NCBI RefSeq assembly: GCF_001882345.1
Contig: NZ_MINL01000001.1
Location: forward strand, 1,821,705 to 1,885,704
Direction of reading: 5' to 3'
DNA length: 64,000 nucleotides
Source: Halomonas sp. QHL1
GTDB taxonomy: Bacteria; Pseudomonadota; Gammaproteobacteria; Pseudomonadales; Halomonadaceae
Shown piece by piece: positions 46,499-61,573 of this stretch (positions are counted from its first letter, which is position 1; every line of letters begins with the position of its first letter). The position numbers and the translations under genes were made by a program. Under the pieces are notes generated by a model that was not told the DNA's origin, ran no database searches, and saw only the letters and a program-made list of their open reading frames with translations.

Positions 46499-46525
46499 CG
46501 CCGTTAGCGTTTAACCCAAAAGACG

Positions 46526-46555
46526 AATCCCGGCCTGCGCGCCGGGATTTTTTAT
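46526..46555 (+). terminator. Rho-independent terminator of betT
   Basis: AATCCCGGC (46526-46534), loop CTGCGC, GCCGGGATT (46541-46549), then TTTTAT. It lies 28 bp past the betT stop. Confidence 0.88.
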
Positions 46556-46651
46556 ACTCGAACGTCCCACGCGACTAACGCCTTGTTGTGCAAATTTCAG
46601 CGCAGGCGTAGCGTAATGGCTTGTTTTCCCTATTTTTAGGAGGCTGGCCCC

Positions 46652-48379
46652 ATGTCCCGTGACCATCGATCTTCGGGATACGTCTTCCCGATGCCTGGCA
46701 GCGCGTTAGTCCATGCCTGGCGTGAAGGGTATACGCTGGCCAAATTAAAGCGCGATGTGATGGCCGGACTGACGATTGGCGTGGTGGCAGTACCGCTTTC
46801 CATGGCGCTGGCAATCGCCACCGGCGTGCCGCCCCAGCATGGGCTTTACACTGCCATCGTAGCGGGTGCGGTGATCGCCTTAACCGGCGGCTCACGGTTT
46901 AATATCTCTGGCCCTACCGCCGCCTTTGTGGTCATTCTTTTTCCTATTGTGGCCAATCACGGTCTGGGTGGGCTGCTGATTGCTACCTTTATGGCAGGCG
47001 CTATTTTGGTCGCGCTGGGGCTTTCGCGGCTGGGCAGCCTGATTCAGTACGTGCCCTACCCGGTCATTCTCGGCTTTACAGCGGGCATTGGCGTGGTGAT
47101 TGCGCTGCTGCAACTACCTGACTTTTTTGGCTTGGCCGGCGTGGAGCTAGGCGATAGCACGCTGCATAACCTAATGCTGATTGGCCAAGCGCTGCCAAGC
47201 CTTTCACCAGCAGAGGTTAGCGTGGGCCTTGTCACCTTGGCGGCGCTATTAGTCTGGCCACTTTTAAACACCCCGATTCCTGCCCCACTAGTTGGCCTGG
47301 CGGTGGGCACCTTGGCTGCCGCGCTGCTGCTGTTGGGTGGTGTTGAGGTCGACACCATTGCCTCGCGGTTTAGCTGGGAGTTCGAGGGTGAAATTGGCAA
47401 CGGTATTCCGCCTTTTGCACCTAGCTTTACCCCGCCATGGCATTTTCCTGGCGCGGATGGCAGACCGCTTGAGATCAACTTTGCGCTGATTCAGGCGCTG
47501 CTCGGCCCGGCACTGGCGATTGCACTGCTGGCTGCGATTGAATCGCTGCTCTGCGCCGTTGTCGCGGACGGCTTAACCCGCACCCGCCATGATCCCAACG
47601 CCGAACTGATTGGCCAAGGGCTCGGTAATCTTGTGGTGCCCTTCTTTGGTGGCATTACAGCTACGGCGGCCCTTGCCCGCACCGCGACCAATATCAAAAG
47701 CGGGGCTTTCTCACCTGTCGCCGCCTTAGTGCACTCGTTAGTGGTGCTGCTGGCCGTCGTCGCACTGGCGGGCGTACTCGGGTATGTACCTATGGCTGCG
47801 TTGGCCGCGCTGCTGTTTATTATTGCCTGGAACATGAGTGAAGCACGTCACTTTATGCATACGCTTAAAAGCGCCCCCGCCAGCGATGTTTGGGTGCTGG
47901 TGATCTGCTTCGCACTCACGGTTGTGTTCGACATGGTGATCGCCGTGGCTGTGGGTATTGGCCTGGCCGCCGCGCTGTTTATTCGTCGTATGGCGCAGTT
48001 GACTCATACCCAACGCTTAGCCGCACCCGACAGCGGCGAACACTTCCCGCCGGAAGTGGCACTTTATAAAATCAGTGGCCCGCTGTTTTTTGGCGCCGCA
48101 GAAAAGGCCATTGCCACACTCAGAGTGATTGATCACAGCGTACGGATTGTCGTCCTGGATATGCGCGATGTTCCCAGCCTGGATACCACCGCCATGGTGG
48201 CGCTGGATGCGCTGCGCCGCGAACTGGGCGAGCAAGACGTCGGGGTGATGTTTGTGGGGCTACCGCCGCGCATGGCACTGAAAATTAAACGTGCGGGTAT
48301 TCGTCGCGAAGTGGGTAAATTAGCCGTGATTAACAACCTTGCCCACGCCGAGCGTATGGCGCGCCGTTGGCTGAACTGA
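46652..48379 (+). CDS. SulP/SLC26 anion transporter with STAS domain (DauA-like)
   Basis: 575-residue inner-membrane carrier. SulP signature: VMAGLTIGVVAVPLSMALAIATGVPPQHGLYTAIVAGAVIALTGGSRFNISGPTAAFVVIL, then GNLVVPFFGGITATAALARTATNIKSGAFSPVAALVHSL. The C-terminal STAS domain (about 460-575) has VRIVVLDMRDVPSLDTTAMVALDALRREL. Length and STAS fit the DauA (YchM) group, which moves C4-dicarboxylates in E. coli, or sulfate permeases; the substrate is not certain. It is only distantly similar to the SulP at 6244. TAGGAGGCTGG precedes the ATG at 46652. Confidence 0.9.
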   Translation: MSRDHRSSGYVFPMPGSALVHAWREGYTLAKLKRDVMAGLTIGVVAVPLSMALAIATGVPPQHGLYTAIVAGAVIALTGGSRFNISGPTAAFVVILFPIVANHGLGGLLIATFMAGAILVALGLSRLGSLIQYVPYPVILGFTAGIGVVIALLQLPDFFGLAGVELGDSTLHNLMLIGQALPSLSPAEVSVGLVTLAALLVWPLLNTPIPAPLVGLAVGTLAAALLLLGGVEVDTIASRFSWEFEGEIGNGIPPFAPSFTPPWHFPGADGRPLEINFALIQALLGPALAIALLAAIESLLCAVVADGLTRTRHDPNAELIGQGLGNLVVPFFGGITATAALARTATNIKSGAFSPVAALVHSLVVLLAVVALAGVLGYVPMAALAALLFIIAWNMSEARHFMHTLKSAPASDVWVLVICFALTVVFDMVIAVAVGIGLAAALFIRRMAQLTHTQRLAAPDSGEHFPPEVALYKISGPLFFGAAEKAIATLRVIDHSVRIVVLDMRDVPSLDTTAMVALDALRRELGEQDVGVMFVGLPPRMALKIKRAGIRREVGKLAVINNLAHAERMARRWLN

Positions 48380-48443
48380 CTTGACGAGCTGAATAGAGTG
48401 AGGCGAGGATTAAATTGCGGCTGTGCAGTGACAACTTCGACAT

Positions 48444-48468
48444 TAAAAAGGGGGAGTTTTGTCCCCCT
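48444..48468 (-). terminator. Terminator after adhP
   Basis: AGGGGGA (48449-48455) and TCCCCCT (48462-48468) pair. On the minus strand the stem is followed by TTTTT (48448-48444). It lies 25 bp past the adhP stop. Confidence 0.8.
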
Positions 48469-48492
48469 GGCGCGACACCCACTGGCTGGCTG

Positions 48493-49521
48493 TTAGCTAG
48501 CCATATCCAACACGATGCGGCCTTCGATTTTTCCGTCGATCATGCGCTGGAAAACGTCGTTGATATTATCCAGCGTATCGGTCGCTACCGTAGCCTTAAC
48601 CTTACCTTCGGCAGCGAAATCCAGCGCTTCCTGCAGGTCACTGCGCGTGCCAACGATAGAGCCACGTATGGTAATACCGTTGAGCACTGTGCTAAAGATT
48701 GGCAGCGGGAAGTCGCCGGGTGGTAGGCCATTAAGCACCAGTGTGCCGCCACGGCGTAGCATATTCTGCGCTTGATCAAACGCCTTCGGCGACACTGCTG
48801 TCACCAAGGCACCGTGAGCGCCACCAATGGTTTTCTTCAAGTAGGCCGCTGGGTCGGTTTTCATGGCGTTAACGGTTACCGTTGCGCCTAAACGCTCGGC
48901 CAGGGCTAGCTTGCCGTCGTCGATATCGACTGCGGCAACGTTAAGTCCCATGGCTTTTGCGTACTGCACCGCCATATGGCCCAGGCCACCTATGCCCGAA
49001 ATCACCACCCACTGGCCGGGACGGGTATCGGTCATTTTTAAGCCTTTATAAACCGTTACCCCTGCACAAAGCACCGGGGCTATTTCTATAAAATCAACGG
49101 CATCCGGCAAGCGCCCGACATAGCCTGCATCAGCTAAGGTGTAATCCGCGAACCCGCCGTTAACGCTGTAGCCGGTATTCTGCTGGGATTCGCACAGCGT
49201 CTCCCAACCGCCTAAACAGTGCTCGCAGTAGCCGCAGGCCGAGTAAAGCCAGGGCACACCAATACGATCACCCTCTTTCACATGGGAGACACCTTCACCC
49301 ACCGCCACGATATGGCCAACGCCTTCGTGCCCAGGAATAAACGGCGGCGAGGGTTTTACCGGCCAATCGCCGTGGGCAGCGTGTAAATCGGTATGACAAA
49401 CCCCAGAGGCCGCCACTTTCATCAATACTTCTCCCTGCTTAGGGCGAGGTACGTCGACTTCTTCTATAACCAACGGCTGGCCAAACTCACGAACGACCGC
49501 CGCGCGCATTGTGCTATCCAT
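48493..49521 (-). CDS. adhP: Zinc-dependent alcohol dehydrogenase (AdhP type)
   Basis: 342-residue medium-chain ADH. Catalytic zinc: [16 protein letters not shown] and [15 protein letters not shown]. Structural zinc: the four-cysteine lobe [21 protein letters not shown] site: [32 protein letters not shown]. This matches AdhP-type ethanol/propanol dehydrogenases. The ATG at 49521 has AGGAGTTG at eight bases; an ATG four codons later begins the conserved core. It lies just downstream of the acetaldehyde dehydrogenase on the same strand, so the pair would convert ethanol to acetate via acetaldehyde. A terminator between the two genes suggests partly separate transcripts. Confidence 0.94.
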
Positions 49522-49602
49522 GATGCAACTCCTAATAGTTTTCGATACGGCCATTTAAGAACGGCTCTTATCGGTAGAGTCAGCGTCAGGGGGACTGACA
49601 AT

Positions 49603-49626
49603 ACCGCCCGGCTGTTGCCGGGCGGT
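49603..49626 (-). terminator. Hairpin between the aldehyde dehydrogenase and adhP
   Basis: ACCGCCCGG (49603-49611) and CCGGGCGGT (49618-49626) around CTGTTG, 18 bp past the aldehyde dehydrogenase stop. On the minus strand it is followed by ATTGTCAG, so the U-tract is poor. It may allow partial read-through to adhP. Confidence 0.55.
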
Positions 49627-49643
49627 GTAGCTAGCAAAGCAGG

Positions 49644-51164
49644 TTAAAAGAAGCCCAGCGGATTGATGTCGTAGCTGACCAGCAGGTTTTTGGTTTGCTG
49701 GTAGTGTTCAAGGGCGACTTTGTGGGTTTCGCGGCCAACGCCGGACTTCTTGTAGCCACCAAACGCGGCGTGGGCGGGATACTGGTGGTAGCAGTTGGTC
49801 CATACGCGCCCGGCTTGGATGCCACGGCCCATGCGGAAGGCGACGTTGATATCGCGGCTCCACACGCCTGCGCCCAAACCAAACTCGGTGTCGTTGGCAA
49901 TCGCCAGGGCTTCCTCTTCGTCTTTGAACGTAGTGACTGCCACGACCGGGCCAAAGATTTCTTCCTGGAAGACACGCATCTGGTTGGTACCCTTCAGCAG
50001 CGTGGGCTGAATGTAGTAACCATCGTTGATGCTGTCGTCCATGGTCTCTTTATTGCCGCCGGTGAGGAATTCCGCACCTTCGTCGCGAGCAATATCCATG
50101 TACGACATGATCTTATCGAACTGCTCTTGGGAAGCCTGGGCACCCACCTGAACATCGGTATCCAGCGGATTGCCGCGTTTGATGGTTTGGGTTCGCTCGA
50201 TCACCTTGGCCATAAACTCGTCGTACATGCTCTCTTGAATCAGCGCGCGAGAGGGACAGGTACACACTTCGCCCTGGTTAAAGAACGCCAGCACCAAGCC
50301 TTCTACCGCTTTATCAATAAACGTCGGTTCGGCGTTCATGATGTCGGCAAAGTAGATGTTGGGGGATTTACCGCCAAGCTCTACGGTGGAGGGGATAATA
50401 TTTTCCGCCGCGCACTTAAGAATATGCGAGCCCACGGGAGTGGAACCGGTAAAGGCGATTTTGGCGATGCGCTTGCTGCTCGCCAACGCTTGCCCTGCCT
50501 CGGCACCAAAGCCGTTGACGATATTGAGTACCCCAGGTGGCAGCAGATCACCAATCACTTCCATTACTTTCAAAATCGACGCGGGGGTTTGTTCCGCAGG
50601 CTTCAAGACCACGCAGTTACCCGCCGCTAGTGCAGGCGCCAGCTTCCAGGTGGCCATTAGAATTGGGAAGTTCCAGGGGATAATCTGCCCTACCACGCCC
50701 AATGGCTCGTGGAAGTGGTAGGAGACGGTGTTAGCATCGATATCCGCCGCGGTGCCTTCTTGCGAACGCAGACAGCCCGCGAAGTAGCGGAAGTGGTCAA
50801 CGGCCAGCGGGAGATCCGCATTGAGGGTTTCGCGCACGGCTTTGCCGTTATCCCAGGTTTCCGCGACGGCAAGCATTTCCAAATTTTGCTCAATGCGGTC
50901 GGCAATTTTCAGCAAAATATTGCTGCGCTCTTGAACTGAGGTTTTACCCCAGGCAGGTGCCGCTTTGTGGGCCGCGTCCAGCGCTTTATCGATATCTTCT
51001 GCCGTCGAGCGGGGGATTTCGCAAAACACATGCCCATTGACGGGGCTAATATTGTCGAAGTACTGGCCTTTCACCGGGGCAACAAATTCGCCGCCGATAT
51101 AGTTGCCATAGCGTTTTTCAAATGACACCAAAGAGCCGGTATCACCAGGGTTGGCGTAGATCAT
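49644..51164 (-). CDS. exaC: NAD-dependent acetaldehyde dehydrogenase (ExaC/AldB type)
   Basis: 506-residue aldehyde dehydrogenase. Seen: [50 protein letters not shown], the catalytic glutamate in [14 protein letters not shown], the catalytic cysteine in [17 protein letters not shown], and the end [32 protein letters not shown]. The CTCPSR motif and the ending are typical of ExaC/AldB/AcoD enzymes that oxidise acetaldehyde. It is divergent from an ErdR-like response regulator over 115 bp and upstream of adhP, so the locus is an alcohol oxidation module with its regulator. Confidence 0.94.
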
Positions 51165-51200
51165 TGTAGTGCTCCTGAGTATTATGATTATTTAGGTGCA

Positions 51201-51229
51201 TTGACAGTGTTGTTCACTAAAGCAAATGG
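51201..51229 (+). promoter_or_regulatory. Candidate sigma-70 promoter of the response regulator
   Basis: TTGACA at 51201-51206 is a perfect -35 match. The best -10 at 17-bp spacing (AAATGG) is poor, so activation by a regulator would be expected. It lies about 50 bp before the regulator start. Confidence 0.35.
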
Positions 51230-51279
51230 CGATATAGCCCGATGGCAGGATTAGCCCTCATCCCTTGGTAGGAGACGCC

Positions 51280-51957
51280 ATGTATTCCCTGATGGTGGCG
51301 GATGACCATCCGCTGTTCCGCGACGCACTACAAACCGTGATTAGCGGGGGCTTGGCAGGCAGCCAGCTATTGGAAGCGGAAAGCCTCGCAGAGGCGATAA
51401 CGCTGATTGAAGCGCACACACAGTTAGATCTACTGCTGTTGGATTTGAGCCTGCCGGATGCAGAGGGATTAGAAGGGCTGACAACACTGCGGGAGGCATT
51501 TCCCTGGTTGCCGGTGGCAATTGTCTCTGCGCATCAAGAACGTCAGCTGGTACTCGATGCCATTACCCTCGGCGCGGTGGGCTATATTCCCAAATCCACG
51601 CCTCGGGAAACGCTGCTGGCCGCGTTAACGCAGATTCTTGAAGGCCAGCTTTACTTGCCGCCCGATGTCATGCGTCGCCCTGCACCGCGCGCTTCTTCAC
51701 CGCTGCCAACGACCAGCACTTCATCAACCAGCGAGCGATTGGCGCGTTTAACCGATAAGCAATTAGAGGTGTTGGCTTGCATGACAACAGGCATGTCGAA
51801 CAAGCATATTGCCCGGGAGTTGTTGATTGCCGAAACCACCGTTAAGACCCATGTTTCGGCGATTTTGCGCAAACTGAATGCCACTAGCCGAGTTCACGCC
51901 ATTGTTATCGCCGGCGAAGAGGATCTGAGTTTTTACCGGGCCAACCGCAATCGTTAG
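51280..51957 (+). CDS. erdR: NarL/LuxR-type response regulator (ErdR/EraR-like)
   Basis: 225-residue regulator. The receiver domain has VADDHPLFRDAL, phosphorylation aspartate in LLLLDLSLPDAEGL, and GYIPKSTPRETLLAAL. The LuxR-type helix-turn-helix reads LTDKQLEVLACMTTGMSNKHIARELLIAETTVKTHVSAILRKL. The sequence and its position beside an ExaC-type aldehyde dehydrogenase match ErdR/EraR, which controls ethanol and acetate oxidation genes in Pseudomonas and related bacteria. The ATG at 51280 follows TAGGAGACG. It converges on the hybrid kinase gene with only 10 bp between the stops. Confidence 0.85.
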   Translation: MYSLMVADDHPLFRDALQTVISGGLAGSQLLEAESLAEAITLIEAHTQLDLLLLDLSLPDAEGLEGLTTLREAFPWLPVAIVSAHQERQLVLDAITLGAVGYIPKSTPRETLLAALTQILEGQLYLPPDVMRRPAPRASSPLPTTSTSSTSERLARLTDKQLEVLACMTTGMSNKHIARELLIAETTVKTHVSAILRKLNATSRVHAIVIAGEEDLSFYRANRNR

Positions 51958-51967
51958 TCGGCACGCG

Positions 51968-53344
51968 TTAGGCTTTATTGAGCAGTGTGGCTAGCAGCAT
52001 GCGCAGCCTCAGGGGCTTGAGCGGTTTTAGTAAACAGTGCATACCCGCTTCACGGGTAGCCCGCTTAATCTCCGCCTCGTGATTGGCAGTAATCACCACC
52101 GCTGCCAAGCCTGGATAACGGCGCTGCAATCGCGCGGCCAGATCAATACCGGTTTCGCGGTGATCGCCCAAGTGATAATCCACCAATAGCACCCCAGGGC
52201 GCTCACCGTCGCTGGCGGCCTCCAACGCACTCACCGTGGCGGCGGCGCGCACTCGACAACCCCAGCTGCCCAGCAGCGCCTGCATGCCTTCTATAATCGC
52301 CAGGTCATCATCAATCACCCAAATGACACAGCCGCTTAACGGATCCTCTGCAACGTCAGGCAGCGGAGTGAAACGAGTGCTCGTCACTGCGGGGGCCGCG
52401 GCCGTTGCGTAGGGCACGGTGATCGAAAAAAGCGCACCCACGCCAGGGCGAGAGGAGAGCGAGATCGGCTGTCCCAGCATGGCGCTGATCCGGTCAACGA
52501 TGGCTAACCCCAACCCCAAGCCGCGGCTGTGGGCGCTGCTTGACTGGTTAGCGCGGCGAAACTCCAGAAAGATCGCCTCCCGCTGCTGCTCGGGAATACC
52601 AGGGCCGGTATCGCCCACTATAATTTCCAGACCATTCTGCCGCCGCCGACAGCCCAGCAGTACTCGCCCTTGCTCGGTGTAGCGCACCGCGTTGCTTAAA
52701 AAGTTGCGGATCACTCGCGCCAGCAGCGCCAGATCCGATTCGACCTCCGCACTGGAAGGCACGTAGTGCAGTGCCAGCCCCCGCACCCCGGCCACTTGGC
52801 GGTACTCTTCGGCTAGCACATCCAATAGCGTACTCACCGCGAACGGCGCTTTATCGGCGTGGAGTACGCCAGCGTCCAATCGCGAGATATCCACTAGTGT
52901 TCCTATCAAGCCTTCGACATCCTTTAGCGAGCGACCAATGTGGCTTACTAGCATTTGCGAGTTTTCAGGCAGCGAGTGGGTTTCTAACGCGCTGGCAAAC
53001 AGCCGGGCGGCATTGAGCGGCTGGAGTAGGTCGTGGCTGACCGCCGCCAGGAATTTCGTTTTGGATAGGTTGGCCGCTTCGGCTTCGGCTTTCGCGGCGA
53101 GTAAGCGCGTATTGACTTGGCTTAGTTCGTCGAGGGTACGGTGTAGCGCGTCGGTGCGCTCTCGCACCTGTTCAGCAAGTAACACAGAGCGCTCAAACGC
53201 CGCATAAGGAGCGGGATCAATGCCACCCCCCGTTTCCACCCGCTCCATGAGCGCTTGGCACACTTTACGCAGGCGACGGTTCTCTTCCCGCAGCGCCGCA
53301 ACATCCGCTGCGTCAGTGTTTGTGGTTAGCTGGAAGAGATCCAA
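51968..53344 (-). CDS. Soluble hybrid sensor kinase (NahK/ErcS family)
   Basis: 458 residues, no transmembrane segment. An N-terminal coiled coil (about 12-95, LREENRRLRKVCQALMERV and a heptad-rich segment up to EAEAANLSK) replaces the PAS domains of longer members. HisKA phosphoacceptor H104 lies in FLAAVSHDLLQPLNAARLFASALE; the HATPase has NFLSNAVRYTEQG, GDTGPGIP and HSRGLGLGLAIVDRI. A C-terminal receiver follows with aspartate in VLLVDYHLGDHRETG. H-DLLQPLNAAR is the family hallmark. The start is a TTG at 53344, inside the FIST gene, after GGGGGTGG. Coupling to the FIST gene mirrors NosP-NahK pairs. Confidence 0.87.
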   Translation of the reverse strand: MDLFQLTTNTDAADVAALREENRRLRKVCQALMERVETGGGIDPAPYAAFERSVLLAEQVRERTDALHRTLDELSQVNTRLLAAKAEAEAANLSKTKFLAAVSHDLLQPLNAARLFASALETHSLPENSQMLVSHIGRSLKDVEGLIGTLVDISRLDAGVLHADKAPFAVSTLLDVLAEEYRQVAGVRGLALHYVPSSAEVESDLALLARVIRNFLSNAVRYTEQGRVLLGCRRRQNGLEIIVGDTGPGIPEQQREAIFLEFRRANQSSSAHSRGLGLGLAIVDRISAMLGQPISLSSRPGVGALFSITVPYATAAAPAVTSTRFTPLPDVAEDPLSGCVIWVIDDDLAIIEGMQALLGSWGCRVRAAATVSALEAASDGERPGVLLVDYHLGDHRETGIDLAARLQRRYPGLAAVVITANHEAEIKRATREAGMHCLLKPLKPLRLRMLLATLLNKA

Positions 53345-54479
53345 ACGCCACCCCCGTAAACGTTTGATTCACATGCATGCCGTGATGCTGTTCGCCGTAG
53401 GTATTGAACCCCACCACGCCTGCTTGGCGCAGGAGCTGCGACGCCTGATCTAACTGTTGTAACGCCTCGAGTTCCATGCGGCGCAGAAAACAGTCGCAGC
53501 CAATAATCATACTAGGCGCCTCCAGCCTTCCGTTCACGCCAGCAAGCATCACTTTGAGATCATCCAGTAGCGGTGTTGGCTGCATGGCGGTTAGCACAAT
53601 GCCGTTTTCCACCGCGCAGTAAAAGCTCAGGCTACTGTCGCTATTAACACGCTGAATAGAGCGCACATAGTGCTGCCCGCCGATGCGTACGGCTAATGGA
53701 TGACGGGCAAAAATGCCAGCGTTGAGCTGCGCAGGGGCAACGCCTACCAGCTCGGCATACACCTGGGCGGCGGGCAAACCATTGAGTTCAATCACCCGCC
53801 TCTGCTCGCGGTCCGCCTCGGTCACCACAAGTTTGTGGGCCAATGGCATTAAGTGGTGGGTTGAAAACACTTCAAAAGGCAGCCGGGTGTTGATCATCAC
53901 CACCACCGCCGCACGGGTATGAAAGCGCCCAGCGGCATACACATGGGTATGGCTAAGGTGATTATCGTCGCCCGCCGAGCCGCCAAAACTGGGGATGCGC
54001 CCTAGCGCGGCATCCAAGGTGGCGAGCACCTGCTCTTCACGGCTGGAGAGGCCATCCAATAAGGTCAGCGCAAAGCTGTGCTCGTTGATCGGCGCGATGG
54101 CTTGTTGGCGGCAACGCTCCAATAGCGTATCGACCAGCGGCTGAGCGCTGGCCAGTTCAAAATGATCCAGGTCGTCGATCAGCGCCGTTTCAATGGCAAA
54201 CAGGCGGCGATCAAACCCAATCGCCACAATAGAGCCGCGGTCGTAGCCTTCAGGGGTTATTTCCCCCGCCGTAGTACAGCCACTTAGCGGCGTGGTGGGG
54301 AAGCTGCTTTCCAACGCGTCCGCTAGTGCGGCTAAATCATACTCCGCGCTGCAGAAGAACAGCACGAAACCCAAGTGTTCGTGCTGTAACACGTCGGCTA
54401 ACTCCGCCGCCGCCCGGCAAGTATTAGTCTGCTGACTGGCCGCAGTGAGAATACCCTGCTCAACCTGGTAAGTGTTCAC
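53313..54479 (-). CDS. FIST-domain signal transduction protein (NosP-like)
   Basis: 388-residue cytoplasmic protein with FIST_N (about 25-215: LGFVLFFCSAEYDLAALADALESSFPTTPLSGCTTAGEITPEGYDRGSIVAIGF, GGSAGDDNHLSHTHVYAAGRFHTRAAVVVMINT) and FIST_C (about 220-365, GVAPAQLNAGIFARHPLAVRIGGQHYVRSIQRVNSD). FIST proteins encoded beside NahK kinases are NosP, a haem-containing nitric oxide sensor that inhibits the kinase. Haem binding here is not demonstrated. The preferred start is GTG at 54479 (GGTGGAG upstream), 20 bp inside the upstream kinase gene. It overlaps the downstream NahK-like gene by 32 bp. This nested arrangement indicates translational coupling. Confidence 0.85.
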   Translation of the reverse strand: MNTYQVEQGILTAASQQTNTCRAAAELADVLQHEHLGFVLFFCSAEYDLAALADALESSFPTTPLSGCTTAGEITPEGYDRGSIVAIGFDRRLFAIETALIDDLDHFELASAQPLVDTLLERCRQQAIAPINEHSFALTLLDGLSSREEQVLATLDAALGRIPSFGGSAGDDNHLSHTHVYAAGRFHTRAAVVVMINTRLPFEVFSTHHLMPLAHKLVVTEADREQRRVIELNGLPAAQVYAELVGVAPAQLNAGIFARHPLAVRIGGQHYVRSIQRVNSDSSLSFYCAVENGIVLTAMQPTPLLDDLKVMLAGVNGRLEAPSMIIGCDCFLRRMELEALQQLDQASQLLRQAGVVGFNTYGEQHHGMHVNQTFTGVAFGSLPANHKH

Positions 54480-56742
54480 GGCTCCACCTCTCCAGCGCGG
54501 AATGCGTATGCGCCGCCGCAAGCCTTAACGTGCCGAACGCTTCATCAAGCTGATTGGATGTGGCGCGTTGCGTTTCAGCTAATATCTCAAGCTGCTTCGC
54601 CAATTCGGCAAGCCGTTCGGCCCCCATACTCAATGATTCGCCGCGCAGTTGATGGGCAAGCCGCACGACCTGCTGTGTCTGCTCTGACGTTAAGGGGGTA
54701 GCGGCCAAACAAGCAGCCAATTGAGCGGAGTAATCGCTTACCTGCTGATGGTATAGCATGATCAGTTGCGTCATGCTCGCCTCCCCTAGCGTCGTTTTCA
54801 GCATGCTAAGGGTGTCGCTGTTAAGCAGTGATTGCTCCTCGGTGAACGGGGGAGAGACCGCTAACGCCTGTGCCTGTAAAGGGGGCGAGTCTGAGGTCGC
54901 AGAAAGCTGCGGTGCCATGTGCTGGGCCAAAACGTTAGTTAACGCCGAGAGCGACAGCGGTTTGGTAATGTAATCATCCATACCCGCCGCCAGGCAGCGT
55001 TGACGGTCATCTTCAGCGCCACCAGCCGTCATGGCAACAATCGGCACACTGGCCAGCCACCCGCCCTGTTCGCGCAAACGCTGGGTGACCGTCAGGCCAT
55101 CCATATCGGGCAACTGAATATCCATAAAGATCAGATGCACCTGTTGGGATTGGGCCATGGCGAGGGCATCATGGCCGTTCTCGGCCCAGATGACATCGCA
55201 ACCCAAGCGCGCCAGTAAGCCCCTCGCGACTTTGCGATTAACGGCATTATCCTCCACCAGCAGCAGCGTTGTGCCGGTAAAATCGCGTTTGGGGGATGAC
55301 GGCAGCGGTCTGGTTACAGGGTCAGCCACGACCAAGGGCAACTCGCACCAGAAGGTGCTGCCTTGGCCTAATTGGCTTTTTACCCCTAACCGCCCCTGCA
55401 TGGCTTCGCTTAACCGTTTGCAAATTGCCAGCCCTAGTCCCGTGCCACCAAACCGACGCGCCACCGACGCATCGGCCTGCTGAAAAGGCTCAAATAGACG
55501 CTGCTGCTGCTGTTCGCTTAGACCACAGCCCGTATCACTGACCTCAAACAGTAACTGCTCCACCGTTGAAGAGACCCGTACACTGACATCACCGTGATCG
55601 GTGAATTTAATCGCATTGGCAATAAGGTTAAGCAGAATTTGCCGCAGCCGGCCTGCATCGACAAGCACCCAGTTAGGCACCAGTGCGTCGACATTAACCG
55701 ATAGCGTCAACCCTTTCATTTTTGCTCGGGGCGCAAATAGCACGACCACACTATCGACCAGCGGCTTGAGTTCCGTGGGCGATGTTTCAAGGGTTAAGTG
55801 CCCTGCTTCGATTTTTGAGAAGTCGAGGATTTCATTGATCATCGCCAGCAATTGGTTGGCACTGTCGTGGATCGTATGAGCGTAATCTTCTACCTGAGCG
55901 GGGCTTGCGGATTCGCGCAGCAGCTCACTCATGCCGATAACACCGTTCAGGGGCGTGCGAATTTCATGGCTGACCATGGCTAAAAAGTCTGACTTTGCCT
56001 GATTCGCCGCCTGAGCTTGTTTGGCGGTGACTTCCAGCTGTCGGCCAAGCTGCTCCTGATTCCGCCTTATCGCCGCGCTCTCGCGCATTTCACGCACCAA
56101 AAAAGCAATCACCAGAAAAGCCGCTAAGCTCATACCCACAATCAGGGTCATGAGCAGCTTGTAGAGCAAGCTGAGCTGGGCACGCTCTTCCGTCGCCGAT
56201 TCGGCTAAGTAGCCGTTAATAGCAATAACCAAACGTTCCGTTAGCCGCGTTAGTGCCTGTAGTTCGTCTTCGAGCGCTGCTATCGGCAGTTGATCAAGCA
56301 CACCGTTGAGCTCGAGTTCATCGTAGGGAGTGAACATAGTATCCAGCAGATCAAGCTGGTGCTGAATTTGGCCCAGTAGCTCCCGAGCGGTATCGATCTG
56401 CTGCAGCAAGTTGCTGACTTCGCCGTCGTTAAGCAGCGTTATACGGCTATACAGTAGCTCAAAGCGAAGATTCAGCTCGTCGTGTGCGCTAGGTGATAAC
56501 GGCTCACGGGTCACTGCCAGCAAATGGTTGAGTAGCTGTACCGCATCGCGATCCAGCTTATAGACAACCCAGGCGGTATCTTCCCGCAGGCTTTGAGTGA
56601 GATTTTCCTGCCGCCAGGCGGCCAAGGTGGCAACGACCAGCGCCGCAGCAAACAGTAACACCGCAACAATGGCAACGAGCTTAAAACGACGAGGATAACG
56701 CAGTAGGCTTGAGGCCTGCGCACTAGGAGCGCTAGAGAACAT
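54460..56742 (-). CDS. Membrane hybrid histidine kinase with receiver and HPt domains
   Basis: 760 residues. TM1 21-43; a helical periplasmic sensor domain about 44-193; TM2 about 194-216; HisKA with H259 in FLAMVSHEIRTPLNGVIGMSELL; HATPase (NLIANAIKFTDHGD, SDTGCGLS, GTGLGLAICKRL); receiver with the aspartate in HLIFMDIQLPDMDG; C-terminal HPt with the histidine in VRLAHQLRGESLSMGAERLAELAKQLE. The kinase is thus a complete phosphorelay able to pass phosphate on to a separate regulator, probably the ErdR-like protein. Its ATG overlaps the upstream periplasmic-protein gene by 11 bp. Confidence 0.9.
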   Translation of the reverse strand: MFSSAPSAQASSLLRYPRRFKLVAIVAVLLFAAALVVATLAAWRQENLTQSLREDTAWVVYKLDRDAVQLLNHLLAVTREPLSPSAHDELNLRFELLYSRITLLNDGEVSNLLQQIDTARELLGQIQHQLDLLDTMFTPYDELELNGVLDQLPIAALEDELQALTRLTERLVIAINGYLAESATEERAQLSLLYKLLMTLIVGMSLAAFLVIAFLVREMRESAAIRRNQEQLGRQLEVTAKQAQAANQAKSDFLAMVSHEIRTPLNGVIGMSELLRESASPAQVEDYAHTIHDSANQLLAMINEILDFSKIEAGHLTLETSPTELKPLVDSVVVLFAPRAKMKGLTLSVNVDALVPNWVLVDAGRLRQILLNLIANAIKFTDHGDVSVRVSSTVEQLLFEVSDTGCGLSEQQQQRLFEPFQQADASVARRFGGTGLGLAICKRLSEAMQGRLGVKSQLGQGSTFWCELPLVVADPVTRPLPSSPKRDFTGTTLLLVEDNAVNRKVARGLLARLGCDVIWAENGHDALAMAQSQQVHLIFMDIQLPDMDGLTVTQRLREQGGWLASVPIVAMTAGGAEDDRQRCLAAGMDDYITKPLSLSALTNVLAQHMAPQLSATSDSPPLQAQALAVSPPFTEEQSLLNSDTLSMLKTTLGEASMTQLIMLYHQQVSDYSAQLAACLAATPLTSEQTQQVVRLAHQLRGESLSMGAERLAELAKQLEILAETQRATSNQLDEAFGTLRLAAAHTHSALERWSREHLPG

Positions 56743-57244
56743 TAATATGCATAACCTGCCATACCGCTCTAAAGCGTATTTTCTCGCTTAACAGCGTTTC
56801 ATCTTGATCAAAGGGGTAGAGCACCCACAAAGGGCCATATTCGCGAATTGGGATCGCTTCACCATCCTTTGCCATGGCTAAAATGACATCGTGATCGTTA
56901 AAGTCACTGACCGGAATTTCGGCTTCGTAGCCATTCAGCGCGGAGACGTGAACTGCATCATATTCTGGGCTTAATAGCGCCAGCAAATCACGCATTAGAG
57001 GGCCACTATAATGGCTGCTACCTTCTGTCCACGGCGTACTGGTCTCAAACTCATGCTGCGGTAAAGCCGCTAGCATGGCCCGGTCAAATTGAGCGTCACT
57101 CCCAACATTCGTATGGTCAATGTTACCGCTGACGGTCAAAATAACGGGCCCATTAGGCACATTAAGGTCATCGGCTGATTCAGCAAGCCCCGCCAGGGGT
57201 GTGCTGAACATCAACACGACCCACCCCATTAACAACGCTTTCAC
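56732..57244 (-). CDS. Periplasmic Oxidored_molyb-fold protein lacking the molybdenum cysteine
   Basis: 170 residues from a GTG at 57244 with GAGGTG at five bases. The signal peptide (VKALLMGWVVLMFSTPLAGLA) is followed by a domain with VILTVSGNI, FETSTPWTEGSSHYSGPLMRDLL, VSALNGYEAEIPVSDF, GPLWVLYPFDQDE and a final RAVWQV. This is the layout of small sulfite-oxidase-like 'Oxidored_molyb' proteins. The mature chain has no cysteine at all, so the ligand that holds molybdenum in true enzymes is missing. It overlaps the hybrid kinase gene by 11 bp. I infer a non-enzymatic periplasmic sensor partner of that kinase. Confidence 0.7.
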   Translation of the reverse strand: MKALLMGWVVLMFSTPLAGLAESADDLNVPNGPVILTVSGNIDHTNVGSDAQFDRAMLAALPQHEFETSTPWTEGSSHYSGPLMRDLLALLSPEYDAVHVSALNGYEAEIPVSDFNDHDVILAMAKDGEAIPIREYGPLWVLYPFDQDETLLSEKIRFRAVWQVMHINVL

Positions 57245-57394
57245 AGTAAACACCTCACGCAAGATCACTCGCTGGCTACAGCACACAGGAGCAAAAAAAG
57301 AAGACAGCGTAAAGGTTACGCCATCTCCTTGAGCAGGTCAGGGCAAATACTGTTTTTTTCGTCACTGAAGCGTTATTAACTGTTCACACTGGCG

Positions 57395-58213
57395 TTACGA
57401 TTTGATTTTCTCGAAGGGTTCGAAGCGCACCAAATCTTCATAGGCGTGCCAACTGGCATGTCCTAGCACGGGCAAAATAAGGGCGAGGCCAATATAAAAC
57501 GTCATGACGCCGACCAGAACGCAAAGGGTAAGAATCACCGCCCATAAAAGCATCACGCGGAAATTACGTGCTACACAGCGTACGCTAGCTTCAATCCCCT
57601 CCATAAAGGTTAGGTCTTGATCCATTAGTGTAGGAATCGCTACAACGCTGATGGCGAAGGCGCCAAAGGCAAGAATGCCGCCCGCGACGGTACCCACCGC
57701 CAGCATACCCAAGCCTTCTGAGGTGGTCAGCAGCGCAGTGTAGAGCGAAGCAGGGCTGGGCACTTCAAAACCGAAAAACAGCGCAAACAGCAGCGTGGCC
57801 AAACGGATCCAAGCGAGGAAGAAGATCATCATCATGACGCCCATCATCGCTAACTGACCGGCATGGGGTTTCCAACTGCCGAACGCATCGCCCAGGTTAG
57901 GCACTTGCCCGCGCTCCAGCGCCCGGCTGATGCCATAGGAGCCTACTGCCACGAGCGGGCCAATAAACATAAACCCGGCAATCATAGGCAGCAACCAGTA
58001 CCAGTACCCCATCGTGAACGCACCTAGGGTAATAGCAATACTCAAACCCACCCAAAACATGCCATAAGAGAGGCTCACTACCGTCGCCCGGCGAAAATCC
58101 TCTACGCCTGCAGCCAGCCACGCCCTTGGTCGATCCAATCCGACCTTATTGATACTAATTTTAACGCTAGGCTGATCCGCATGGTGATTTGTTTTTGTTG
58201 TAGCCGCATTCAT
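57395..58213 (-). CDS. DUF2189 family integral membrane protein
   Basis: 272 residues with six or so hydrophobic helices. Conserved DUF2189 features are RPRAWLAAGVEDFRRATVVSLSYGMFWVGLSIAI, MFIGPLVAVGSYGISRALERGQVPNLGDAFGSWKPH and SVVAIPTLMDQDLTFMEGIEASVRCVARNFRVMLLWAVIL. The last helices and a short cytosolic tail (HASWHAYEDLVRFEPF) complete the family pattern. The function is unknown; many members neighbour respiratory genes. It is a lone gene here, with AACAGGAGTGATGCC before the ATG. Confidence 0.85.
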   Translation of the reverse strand: MNAATTKTNHHADQPSVKISINKVGLDRPRAWLAAGVEDFRRATVVSLSYGMFWVGLSIAITLGAFTMGYWYWLLPMIAGFMFIGPLVAVGSYGISRALERGQVPNLGDAFGSWKPHAGQLAMMGVMMMIFFLAWIRLATLLFALFFGFEVPSPASLYTALLTTSEGLGMLAVGTVAGGILAFGAFAISVVAIPTLMDQDLTFMEGIEASVRCVARNFRVMLLWAVILTLCVLVGVMTFYIGLALILPVLGHASWHAYEDLVRFEPFEKIKS

Positions 58214-58538
58214 GGCATCACTCCTGTTATTCCTGATATAGATCCTGGATTCAGGATTTACCGCTAACGCATCAACACTCGTTACCCGCTAAGATATTAA
58301 TGCCGATTTAATGGCTTAACGTTATTTGTTAATACCCTCTTAATGTAGCTGACCTGAAGACCCGAGGCTTTGACTGAAAGGTTATGCGTACAAAAAATCC
58401 ACGAAAAGGCCTTAAAGCGCCAATTAAATTGCTGCGTTAGAAAAAACAGATATAGTTAAAAAGCGCTATGGACAGCTATAAAAAAACTCCGAGCAACTGC
58501 CCGGAGTTTTTGGTTTTCCTTACGTGACTCTCGATAAG
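58214..58538. other. 325-bp intergenic region with a terminator
   Basis: AT-richer than its neighbours and without a plausible gene. It holds the promoter of the DUF2189 gene and, at 58482-58511, the terminator of the TRAP/UspA operon. Confidence 0.5.
58482..58511 (-). terminator. Terminator after the TeaD-like uspA gene
   Basis: AAAAACTCCG (58482-58491) pairs with CGGAGTTTTT (58502-58511). It works in both directions; on the minus strand it ends in TTTTT. It lies 28 bp past the uspA stop. Confidence 0.85.
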
Positions 58539-58967
58539 CTAGCGCACAATCATTACCGACATTTTGGCATGGTGCACAACGTGCTCTGCATTGGGGCCGA
58601 GCACATAGTCGACAAACTTACGCTTATTGTGTGAGGCCATGACGATTAGATCCACGTCCAGCTTTTTACCCGCTTTGATAATAGCCTCCCAAGGTGAGCC
58701 ATCCACAATAACGCTTTGCACCTGAATATCGTCGGGCACATTCGTCTTGATGAACTCGTGAAGCGCCTCGCTGATCGCCGTATGCGCTTTTTTGGCAAAG
58801 TCCTTGGGGAAATAGGAGCCAACCATGGGCATGCGATAGTCCGGCAGTACCGTCACTACATGAAGCGAGGCGCCGAAGGTTCGACATAGCGTCAGGGCTG
58901 TAGGCAGCGCCTTCGACCAGGAGGACGCCTCGTTCAGATCCACCGGCAACATGATCTTGCTGTACAT
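58539..58967 (-). CDS. Single-domain universal stress protein linked to a TRAP transporter (TeaD-like)
   Basis: 142-residue UspA-type protein: KIMLPVDLNEASSWSKALPTALTLCRTFGASLHVVTVLPDY at the N-terminus and the nucleotide-binding end DLIVMASHNKRKFVDYVLGPNAEHVVHHAKMSVMIV. In Halomonas elongata the ectoine TRAP system TeaABC has a comparable partner, TeaD, which binds ATP and lowers transport. Here the gene follows a TAXI-type TRAP permease by 11 bp. The ATG at 58967 has AAGGAGAG; the upstream ATG overlapping the permease stop does not. Confidence 0.85.
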   Translation of the reverse strand: MYSKIMLPVDLNEASSWSKALPTALTLCRTFGASLHVVTVLPDYRMPMVGSYFPKDFAKKAHTAISEALHEFIKTNVPDDIQVQSVIVDGSPWEAIIKAGKKLDVDLIVMASHNKRKFVDYVLGPNAEHVVHHAKMSVMIVR

Positions 58968-58978
58968 GGCACTCTCCT

Positions 58979-61573
58979 TCATGCGGTGGCGGCAGCTTGC
59001 GTGTTATCACGACGCCGACGCTGCATTAGTACAATCAACCCAAAGAGCAAGAAGGCAGGGATCCACATTAGCTCCTTAGTCCAACGGTCGACGGGGGCCA
59101 AAACCTCGATGATTTCTTGATCGAAGTCGAAACCGAGCTCAGCCGCCTGGCTGCCGTAGGTCACCATATCAACGGTTGCCGTGCCATCCTCAATAAAGAG
59201 CTCCATGCCCAAATTATCGAGCCGCTCCTGGCCCGTTTCTCCATCAGGTACTGGCAGCGTCATGTAGGTGGTCATGGAATCGCCATAATCATCAAGACCG
59301 GCAATCTGCAGGCGCAGGGTGGAGTCTTCGTCCACCTCGCCTAGCGCTTCGACGAATTGCGCGGGCGGGATGGATTCGTAGGGATCATGAATCATGTCCA
59401 TCCAGAAACCGGGGCGGAACAGCGTGAACGCAATCAGCAGCAGCACGATAGACTCATACCAGCGGTTGCGCGTAATCATAAAGCCCTGGGTCGCGGCGGC
59501 GAAGATCAGCATGGCGATAGTCGACACCACAAAGATCAGTACCCCTTGAAGGAAGGTCACATCGATGAGTAGCAGATCAGTATTAAAGATAAACAGGAAC
59601 GGTAGCGCCGCGGTACGAAGGCTGTAATAAAACGCCTGGAAGCCGGTTCGAATAGGGTCACCACCGGATACTGCCGCCGCCGCAAAGGACGCCAGCCCCA
59701 CCGGCGGGGTAACGTCGGCCATGATACCGAAGTAGAAAACGAACAGGTGTACTGCGATTAACGGCACCAGCAGGCCATTTTCTGCCCCCAGCTGCACGAC
59801 GACCGGCGCCAACAACGCAGATACGACGATATAGTTGGCCGTGGTGGGTAAGCCCATGCCGAGAATTAAGCTGAGCACTGCGGTAAGCAGCAAGATCAGC
59901 ATTAAGTTACCCATGGCAAGCGTTTCCACTACCTCGGCCAGTACCAGGCCTACCCCGGTCTGGGATACGGCGCCGACAATGATACCCGCGGTGGCCGTAG
60001 CAATACCGATGCCGATCATGTTGCGGGCACCAGTAACTAGGCCATTCCACAAATCCATCACCCCTTCATTTAGATCCGCCCGCATATCGCTGCGTCCGCG
60101 AAAGATTGACGTAATGGGGCGCTGGGTAAGAATAATGAAAATCATGAAAACAGTGGCCCAGAAAGCCGACAGCCCTGGCGACAAACGCTCCACCATCAGA
60201 CACCAGACCAACACAATAACCGGCAAAATGTACTGCAGGCCGACCAGCACCGTCGGTTTAGTCTGAGGCAGTGAAAAGATCGGTTGGTTAGGGTCATCGA
60301 GCTCAAGCTCTGGGTAACCGGCCGCCAGTTTGAGCAGAGCGATATAAATGGCCGTAAGCCCAACGGCTACCACCCAGGGAGTCGCATCGCCCAGTAGCGG
60401 CTTGAGCCATCCAAGACCGTAATAAACAGCTAAGGCGGTTACCATCATCAGTAGTAAACCACCTAGAAAACCGATCACTTTATTGACCAGCGGCTTAGGT
60501 GGGTTACTGCTTTGCAGCCCCTGCATATTGGCCTTGAGGGCCTCAAGGTGAACGATGTAGACCAGCGCAATATAGGAGATCAATGCGGGCAGGAAGGCAT
60601 GCTTAATCACTTCGACATAAGAGATACCCACATACTCGACCATCAGGAAAGCGGCAGCCCCCATCACCGGCGGCATAATCTGTCCATTGACCGATGACGC
60701 CACTTCAACAGCACCCGCCTTTTCCGCGGAAAAACCAACACGCTTCATCATCGGCACCGTGAAGGTACCCGTGGTTACCACATTGGCAATCGAGGAGCCG
60801 GAAATTAGCCCGGTCATAGCGGAGGCCACCACGGCGGCTTTCGCTGGCCCACCGCGATAGTGACCAAGGAGCGAGAACGCCACCTTGATAAAGTAATTGC
60901 CAGCGCCAGCCTTATCGAGCAGGGCGCCGAATAACACAAATAGGAACACGAAGCTGGTTGATACCCCCAGTGCGATACCGAAGACCCCCTGGGTCGTCAA
61001 CCACTGGTGATTAATCAAGCCGAAGAGGCTCACCCCGCCGTGGGAAAGAATACCCGGCATCCAAGGGCCAGCTAGGCTATAGAGAAGAAACACCGACGCC
61101 ACAATCATTAACGGGGGGCCAAGCGCTCGACGCGTTGCCTCAAGCAGCAGCAGTATCCCGGCTATACCAATAATAACGTCCTGCAGTATTGGAGCGCCGG
61201 GGCGCTGGGATAACTGCTCGTAAAACATAAACATGTAAGCGCCACAAAAGGCCGCTGCCGCTGCAAGTACCCAATCCTGAATCGGAATACGGTCACGAGG
61301 AGAGCGCTTGAGTGCGGGATAGGCCATATACGCTAGAAAAAGCGCAAAGGCCAAGTGAATAGAGCGGGCTTCAGTGGCACTAAATACGCCAAAACCCAGA
61401 ACGAAGGGCACTGGCGATGCAATCCACAATTGAAAAAGAGACCACGCTGCCGCAATGCTTACCAAGAGCTTCCCGGGCATGCCGGCTGGCTTGCGGGCTC
61501 CCGTATCGCTGGAGGCGACCATATCCTCCAAGTCTACTCCGGCTCCCGAAGGCCTGTTCTTATCATCTGTCAT
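58979..61573 (-). CDS. TAXI-TRAP permease, fused small and large subunits (DctQM type)
   Basis: 864-residue membrane protein with about 18-20 helices. The N-terminal part corresponds to the small subunit (LLVSIAAAWSLFQLWIASPVPFVLG); the rest is the large DctM-like subunit (ILLLLEATRRALGPPLMIVASVFLLYSLAGPWMPG; SGSSIANVVTTGTFTVPMMKRVGFSAEKAGAVEVASSVNGQIMPPVMGAAAFLMVEYVG; LTAVLSLILGMGLPTTANYIVVSALLAPVV). The C-terminus carries a DUF3394-type domain (YGSQAAELGFDFDQEIIEVLAPVDRW) and a final helix. These fused permeases work with TAXI receptors, driven by a sodium or proton gradient. The receptor gene is next upstream; a hairpin and a tandem repeat separate them. Confidence 0.93.
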   Translation of the reverse strand: MTDDKNRPSGAGVDLEDMVASSDTGARKPAGMPGKLLVSIAAAWSLFQLWIASPVPFVLGFGVFSATEARSIHLAFALFLAYMAYPALKRSPRDRIPIQDWVLAAAAAFCGAYMFMFYEQLSQRPGAPILQDVIIGIAGILLLLEATRRALGPPLMIVASVFLLYSLAGPWMPGILSHGGVSLFGLINHQWLTTQGVFGIALGVSTSFVFLFVLFGALLDKAGAGNYFIKVAFSLLGHYRGGPAKAAVVASAMTGLISGSSIANVVTTGTFTVPMMKRVGFSAEKAGAVEVASSVNGQIMPPVMGAAAFLMVEYVGISYVEVIKHAFLPALISYIALVYIVHLEALKANMQGLQSSNPPKPLVNKVIGFLGGLLLMMVTALAVYYGLGWLKPLLGDATPWVVAVGLTAIYIALLKLAAGYPELELDDPNQPIFSLPQTKPTVLVGLQYILPVIVLVWCLMVERLSPGLSAFWATVFMIFIILTQRPITSIFRGRSDMRADLNEGVMDLWNGLVTGARNMIGIGIATATAGIIVGAVSQTGVGLVLAEVVETLAMGNLMLILLLTAVLSLILGMGLPTTANYIVVSALLAPVVVQLGAENGLLVPLIAVHLFVFYFGIMADVTPPVGLASFAAAAVSGGDPIRTGFQAFYYSLRTAALPFLFIFNTDLLLIDVTFLQGVLIFVVSTIAMLIFAAATQGFMITRNRWYESIVLLLIAFTLFRPGFWMDMIHDPYESIPPAQFVEALGEVDEDSTLRLQIAGLDDYGDSMTTYMTLPVPDGETGQERLDNLGMELFIEDGTATVDMVTYGSQAAELGFDFDQEIIEVLAPVDRWTKELMWIPAFLLFGLIVLMQRRRRDNTQAAATA

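Follow-up and report, generated by a model that had tools for sequence, protein, structure and literature searches.

Two predicted sensor modules in one gene row beside exaC of Halomonas sp. QHL1, and a bipartite DNA element that is likely the operator of one of them

Which signals are read by the row of four overlapping genes that lies beside the alcohol-oxidation genes exaC and adhP of Halomonas sp. QHL1, and do they act through one circuit or through two? The row is part of a stretch of 64,000 nucleotides (the window in the following; positions 1,821,705 to 1,885,704 of contig NZ_MINL01000001.1, assembly GCF_001882345.1), and a sequence-only reading had described it as a multi-input phosphorelay, in which a periplasmic and a nitric oxide (NO)-type signal converge on one HPt (histidine phosphotransfer) domain and an ErdR-like regulator to set alcohol use. 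Our analysis makes it probable that two predicted sensor modules are combined in this row: NosP, NahK and a response regulator (RR), which likely activate exaC and adhP via a bipartite element, and, separable from these, a PruR-DTB pair that would sense periplasmic pterins. A phosphotransfer from the HPt domain of the DTB kinase to RR is not included in this reading. It builds on the gene order, the overlaps, the domains, the kept catalytic residues and the element with its RR co-occurrence, all of which are observed. The parts of the locus are the following:

48493-49554, minus strand: adhP, alcohol dehydrogenase, likely co-regulated (NF006940, 374 bits, cut-off 344)
49644-51164, minus strand: exaC, acetaldehyde dehydrogenase, likely the RR target (NF050026, 976 bits, cut-off 900)
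51229-51274, minus strand: bipartite element of 46 bp upstream of exaC, likely the RR operator
51280-51957, plus strand: RR, NarL/LuxR-family response regulator (domains REC-GerE)
51968-53344, minus strand: NahK, short NahK/ErcS-type hybrid kinase with a TTG start (NF041832; domains HisKA-HATPase-REC)
53313-54479, minus strand: NosP (FIST-FIST_C) with a GTG start (NF041558 and Pfam)
54460-56742, minus strand: DTB-type membrane hybrid kinase (domains HisKA-HATPase-REC-Hpt, conserved residues)
56732-57244, minus strand: PruR-type periplasmic pterin-binding protein, predicted, 170 amino acids (phmmer, no Cys)

All five genes of the sequence-only reading lie where it had placed them, with overlaps of 11, 20 and 32 bp along the minus-strand row from PruR via the DTB kinase and NosP to NahK. 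RR faces this row from the plus strand and is divergent from exaC and adhP, as had been noted before; adhP begins 89 bp after exaC, and both dehydrogenases score above their NCBIfam cut-offs.

The FIST protein that had been seen beside a NahK kinase is assigned to NosP by NCBIfam (NF041558, 563 bits, cut-off 450) and carries the Pfam domains FIST and FIST_C, while no solved structural relative was found by sequence at an E value of 0.01. The neighbouring kinase is of the NahK/ErcS type, reaching 492 bits with the model for the C-terminal subfamily (NF041832, cut-off 400); it fails the full-length model (NF041831, 477 bits, cut-off 1500), the long N-terminal part being missing. The regulator had been called ErdR-like and ErdR is still its best NCBIfam match (NF041830), but it scores 163 bits at a cut-off of 390, and a better CrbR/ErdR candidate, likewise under this cut-off, is encoded at G000:C1:1951240-1951866 (L114, 268 bits), about 78 kb from the locus, where it adjoins acs and a CrbS-like kinase of 1313 amino acids. 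RR was hence rejected as the dedicated ErdR and is a second paralogue, being 40% identical to this candidate. NahK is 45% identical to the C-terminal half of the CrbS-like kinase, which has a receiver and no HPt match. NahK and RR thus look like a second copy of the CrbS-CrbR pair with NosP replacing the fused sensor, and this paralogy indicates NahK as the probable kinase of RR. The upstream region of acs in the same genome contains TAATACCAATGTCTAAA, which fits the ACTU letters given for CrbR (PMC5715377); it differs from the element at exaC, yet TACCAAnG is common to both.

Two deviating arrangements were seen among relatives. At L096 and L097 two NahK/ErcS-like kinases flank NosP, the gap between NosP and NahK is longer and the regulator is diverged; the exaC upstream regions of these genomes (G111, G119) are without the element. 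In a genome of another family (G408, L124) the genes downstream of a PruR-like gene encode a CrbS/NahK-type kinase (37%) and a CrbR-like regulator (31%), a hint at a possible pairing of PruR with regulators of the CrbR type.

To follow the locus through its relatives we used 151 genomes of the family, of which 25 belong to the own genus (g1), a wider sample of 321 genomes of the class and an additional sample of 80 named loci. The loci of relatives were mapped with the window's own proteins. Hits from tblastn with less than 40% coverage were dropped unless they were more than 60% identical, and in the named loci RR matches below 45% and DTB matches below 40% identity were dropped as well, whereby the RR of L266 was lost. 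Linkage and RR/element counts rest on the matches listed, and where no PruR is counted one may have gone unlisted.

The gap between RR and exaC holds the bipartite element, which is new here. It reads CTCCTACCAAGGGATGAG (51257-51274) and, after 6 bp, TCCTGCCA (51243-51250), and its family pattern is CTCCTnCCnAnGGAnGAG-N6-TCCTGCCA. With up to one mismatch allowed, 0.03 chance matches of the 18-mer pattern are expected in the window, and genome-wide the window site is the sole exact match, with one further site at 1 mismatch. Upstream of exaC the 18-mer was found with 0-1 mismatch in 78 of the 80 named loci, the other two having no exaC in range. Where RR lies beside exaC (70 named loci), it is present with no (57) or one (13) mismatch within 49 distinct 46-mers, at a distance to exaC of 92-109 bp in 69 loci and of 250 bp in one. 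Among exaC upstream regions that had not been used for the pattern, 20/28 with RR possess the element versus 1/34 without RR; the eight misses all belong to diverged RRs (46-51% identity) and the other 33 RR-less regions show at best 3 mismatches.

A family-wide search for the bipartite pattern at up to 3 mismatches gave 71 sites in 63 of the 151 genomes, whereas the reversed-pattern control gave none in the same 151 genomes. By their coordinates all these sites lie in an RR/exaC/adhP neighbourhood, except two with three mismatches. The element occurs in 60/60 genomes with a close RR (at least 54% identity) against 3/91 others (G057, G068, G073), among the matches listed. Since G057 and G068 do have an RR between NahK and exaC (44 and 49% identical over a longer form), counting both as RR carriers changes this to 62/62 against 1/89. 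All 60 genomes with a close RR also have a strong NosP, again among the matches listed. Beyond the family, the search was confined to four stretches chosen for NosP (L118-L121), where up to 5 mismatches were allowed and no bipartite match was found. As a separate case, the element of G073 (G073:C5:47627-47658, L277) stands upstream of an exaC whose neighbourhood is a different one; no close RR, NahK or NosP was found there, perhaps owing to a recent loss.

The position of the element is tied to the dehydrogenase genes. Its distance to RR is 5-6 bp in 37/70 named loci and 18-127 bp in the other 33; in L255 RR is more than 4 kb away and the element remains 95 bp before exaC, and in seven loci, where adhP is placed between RR and exaC, a separate copy (0-1 mismatch in the 18-mer) stands before each of the two dehydrogenase genes. 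Because of this variable distance, L255 and the double copies, the element follows the dehydrogenase genes. It is likely the RR operator, and since it remains at exaC where RR has moved away and stands before both dehydrogenase genes where adhP lies in between, NosP, NahK and RR likely control exaC and adhP. The link of the regulator to these two genes, which had been proposed from their neighbourhood, is thereby strengthened across the family.

For the first two genes of the row a more specific identity can be given. The secreted protein with an Oxidored_molyb fold matches that Pfam family as had been stated, but from its relatives it is a Cys-free PruR-type pterin-binding protein by prediction. 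It has 170 amino acids and no Cys, hence it lacks the molybdenum-ligating cysteine, and its N terminus shows a signal-like hydrophobic stretch by eye. With phmmer its solved relatives are 7kos/7kou (2.3e-31), 7rkb (1.8e-27), 7kp2 (1.7e-18) and 7kom (3.7e-12), and the title of 7kos is 'Pterin Binding Protein'. In the available text of a review the PruR family is described as having about 170 amino acids, no Mo-ligand cysteine and, at the pterin, a Trp together with a Tyr that is Phe in Halomonas elongata (PMC13259868). The assignment follows from these pterin-binding relatives together with the agreement of the traits: Tyr106 and Trp162 are at the pterin-site positions (their equivalence to Tyr104/Trp160 was judged by eye from the alignment), and Tyr/Phe and Trp are present in 38/38 aligned homologues, which were taken for PruR and DTB alike from 40 loci, two of them being without the gene.

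According to the same available text, the partner encoded downstream of PruR is a membrane protein with a WX7E motif and either c-di-GMP (cyclic di-GMP) domains (DcpA) or a TorS/BaeS-like kinase (DTB) (PMC13259868). The second gene fits the latter and would form a PruR-DTB pair with the first. The membrane hybrid kinase with receiver and HPt was recovered as such, with two hydrophobic segments about 145 residues apart, compared with a periplasmic region of about 190 in the review as far as available (PMC13259868). Its motif in this region is W58-x7-D66, with Asp instead of Glu in the own genus and WX7E in some other genera; the W and the Asp/Glu are kept in the 38 aligned homologues, and so are the REC Asp (D541) and the HPt His (H697) in 38/38. 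TIGR02956 (TorS) is the top NCBIfam match at 467 bits, below the equivalog cut-off of 676.5. The periplasmic input suspected before can thus be specified as a predicted pterin sensor of the PruR type.

The neighbourhood survey that the sequence-only reading had proposed shows the row to be kept in most of the own genus. The whole contiguous set is present in 18/25 own-genus genomes; in G129 it is split into two blocks with about 74 kb between them, G102 and G117 have PruR-DTB-exaC without NosP, NahK and RR, and G138, G142, G146 and G150 have neither NosP nor a close PruR, the PruR of G142 and G150 being the second copy. In all 18 loci with the set the three overlaps recur (11, once 14; 20 or 23; and 23-32 bp, with start codons in relatives chosen by nearness to those of the window). 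Among the named loci, with V. boliviensis, V. sedimenti and V. titanicae (Vreelandella) as best matches, the six genes are all found no further than 10 kb from NosP in 47/80, and NosP-NahK-RR-exaC is present in 77/80. Because the overlaps recur in 18/18 loci and the six genes are together in 47/80, the row of overlaps is beyond chance. In the family as a whole 116 of the 151 genomes have a PruR-like and 84 a NosP-like gene. After exclusion of 6/84 weak NosP matches (<300 bits), 78 genomes with a strong NosP (>350 bits) remain; in 47 of them, among the matches listed, a PruR is at most 30 kb from NosP, and in 47/47 both are on the same strand with PruR upstream. Of the 321 class genomes 41 have NosP and 12 have PruR, and no linked pair was found outside the family; G452, the one genome with both besides the own, carries them on different contigs.

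From these observations we propose the following mechanism. NosP would bind heme/NO and thereby alter the phosphorylation of NahK, as the available text reports an effect of NosP on its kinase for NosP-NosK in Burkholderia (PMC12570481). NahK would phosphorylate RR in the manner of the CrbS-CrbR pair, and phosphorylated RR would bind the element and switch on exaC, with adhP behind exaC. A small periplasmic pterin would be the ligand of PruR, which would steer the DTB membrane kinase. The weakest step is a phosphotransfer from His697 of the DTB HPt domain to RR, and such a convergence on RR appears rather doubtful. If it existed, pterin and NO/heme signals would meet on one regulator with a private DNA element and together set the oxidation of alcohol and acetaldehyde; carbon use would then be under a redox gate with two signals, which we regard as a tentative possibility. 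Of the convergence claimed earlier, the tie of the regulator to exaC and adhP therefore stands by virtue of the element, whereas the regulator is not ErdR and a convergence through one HPt is not supported, as the modules persist separately and G129 has its blocks about 74 kb apart.

Several points weigh against the reading of two modules in one row with RR at the element. All family and locus counts include the effect of common ancestry, and as at least 21 of the 80 named loci have DNA in common with loci of the other sample, the two samples are not independent. At up to 2 mismatches the 18-mer has 27 sites in the genome versus 26 for the reversed control, the element was found in 0/16 genomes with a diverged RR, and in the own genus it lies 5 bp from the RR ATG and overlaps the RR ribosome-binding site (CTCCT being its complement). 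Although the overlaps are kept within the genus, no DTB-NosP overlap exists outside of it, where the blocks are separated by 66 bp to 14 kb and the NosP-NahK overlap is mostly retained. No PruR within 30 kb was found in 31/78 strong-NosP genomes, among the matches listed. NosP-NahK-RR-exaC without PruR-DTB at the locus occurs in L132 (= G127 = L242), L098 and L245 (Halomonas halodenitrificans), and PruR-DTB without NosP, NahK and RR in L077 and L078, with the HPt His intact. The gap between the blocks of L085 reads as a fructose phosphotransferase system operon from its translations, which ruled out for this locus the idea of a PQQ/exa cluster between the blocks in other genera. A second PruR-DTB pair of the genome (G000:C1:3764306-3767000, L115), whose kinase is 36% identical to the one studied here, is adjoined by a divergent OmpR-type regulator; a chemoreceptor gene is located further along. 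In a mirror-tree analysis of the 40/89 loci with all eight genes, the residual distance correlation of DTB and RR (0.59) falls within the range of the ten pairs (0.45-0.78) and does not discriminate.

The source of the pterin adds a further difficulty. FolM-type pteridine reductase is the assumed source of the PruR ligand. With a single E. coli query and a threshold of E 1e-20, a FolM/PruA-type enzyme was found in 112/151 genomes of the family, which equals 112/126 outside the own genus, and in 0/25 within it. PruR is nevertheless common in the own genus, and its ligand may come from outside or via another enzyme. The same puzzle is noted for Vibrio cholerae in the available text of the review (PMC13259868).

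Many of these points also speak for two strictly independent systems in one operon, with NosP, NahK and RR acting on exaC and adhP, PruR-DTB acting on a regulator elsewhere and the overlap reflecting shared synteny or co-expression; in our estimate this has not quite an even chance. The modules are separable both ways, the second PruR-DTB pair has its OmpR-type regulator next to it, RR and NahK are paralogous to a CrbR/CrbS-like pair that encodes no HPt, and the mirror-tree values do not favour DTB-RR. It is opposed by the overlap kept in all 18 own-genus loci with the set, by the constant position of the linked PruR upstream of NosP on the same strand and by the finding that, among the open reading frames (ORFs) read in the window and in the L085 gap, no other response regulator adjoins PruR-DTB.

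The obligatory multi-input phosphorelay of the sequence-only reading, with both kinases feeding the single HPt of DTB and from there RR, is unlikely. NahK does end with a receiver and carries no HPt, DTB has the one HPt of the locus, and the REC Asp and HPt His are conserved. Yet NosP-NahK-RR-exaC and the element persist where PruR-DTB is missing from the locus (G127, G013, L245), the CrbS-like relative likewise has a receiver and no HPt match, and besides DTB five Hpt matches were found in the own genome. In the gap between NosP and the DUF2189 gene of L098, no HPt was seen by eye among the listed ORFs of at least 90 amino acids.

That the element is only the RR ribosome-binding site plus the core exaC promoter, and no operator, is very unlikely. 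The overlap with the RR ribosome-binding site could alone conserve part of the element, and CTCCT in the own genus and the 5-6 bp spacing in 37/70 loci agree with this; the 33 loci with a longer spacing, the element left at exaC in L255 and the copies at both adhP and exaC in seven loci do not, and the right half of the element would be left unexplained. That RR is ErdR/CrbR itself, the acetate/ethanol switch of Pseudomonas and Vibrio, is barely conceivable in spite of ErdR being its best NCBIfam match, given its 163 bits (cut-off 390) and the other gene with 268 bits (below the cut-off) by the CrbS-like kinase and acs with its ACTU-fitting motif.

A few further features were recorded around the row. 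In the gap between the DUF2189 gene and PruR a consensus scan found one more feature:

57298-57330, minus strand: terminator-like stem with a T run

It is a possible upstream border of the operon, the same scan giving 16 such sites in the region against 12.1 +/- 3.3 in shuffles. An Rfam scan of 46000-60000 gave no match at the gathering score. By eye, the region before exaC at 51175-51212 (minus strand) contains, close to the ribosome-binding site of exaC, an AAnAAnAA-like sequence that is a candidate Crc/Hfq site, and a conserved CAACACTG (51205-51212) that is a possible core promoter.

Compared with known systems, the locus combines traits that are otherwise described apart; among the papers listed, in a search mostly outside subscription papers, none was found that deals with a locus holding both PruR and NosP or with an action of NosP on exaC. 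PruR-DTB systems are described as a class in the available text of the review, with NosP mentioned merely as another redox-type example (PMC13259868). The locus shares with them a secreted PruR that has no Cys and is encoded directly before a TorS-like membrane kinase, whose WX7E/D motif may correspond to theirs, and differs in that NosP and NahK follow without a gap. Such systems are widespread, yet the text available from this review names no DTB output (PMC13259868), whereas the locus studied here points to alcohol and aldehyde oxidation; a two-signal gate, if true, would be the first metabolic output for a PruR-DTB system. NosP-NahK beside alcohol-oxidation genes has already been described in Pseudomonas, as far as the available text shows (PMC12997753). 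NosP-NahK of Pseudomonas aeruginosa (PA1975-PA1976) shares with the locus a NosP and a NahK/ErcS-type kinase near such genes, but NahK is short here and without the long N-terminal part, and the output described there is HptB-RsmA (PMC11784011, PMC12997753, both in their available text) in place of a DNA-binding regulator with exaC and adhP. In NosP-NosK-NosR of Burkholderia a NosP, a soluble kinase and a regulator are likewise encoded together, but the available text gives NosR a degenerate HD-GYP output (PMC12570481), in contrast to the LuxR-type DNA-binding output found here. CrbS-CrbR (MxtR-ErdR) is similar in the paralogous kinase half and regulator, in the acetate/ethanol theme and in TACCAAnG, common to the acs motif and the exaC element of the own genome; unlike CrbS, the kinase has no SLC5 or PAS part and NosP is a separate sensor, and the element reads CTCCTnCC.. 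compared with ACTU. In the cited papers, as available, the outputs of NosP run via c-di-GMP-type regulators or RsmA, whereas the NosP set described here is accompanied by a DNA-binding regulator of its own, with a candidate operator and exaC and adhP as likely targets; within one genus this set overlaps a predicted pterin-sensor pair. Two loose questions, the role of the DTB kinase and the location of NosP-NahK near alcohol-oxidation genes, hence become testable on one short promoter in a halophile.

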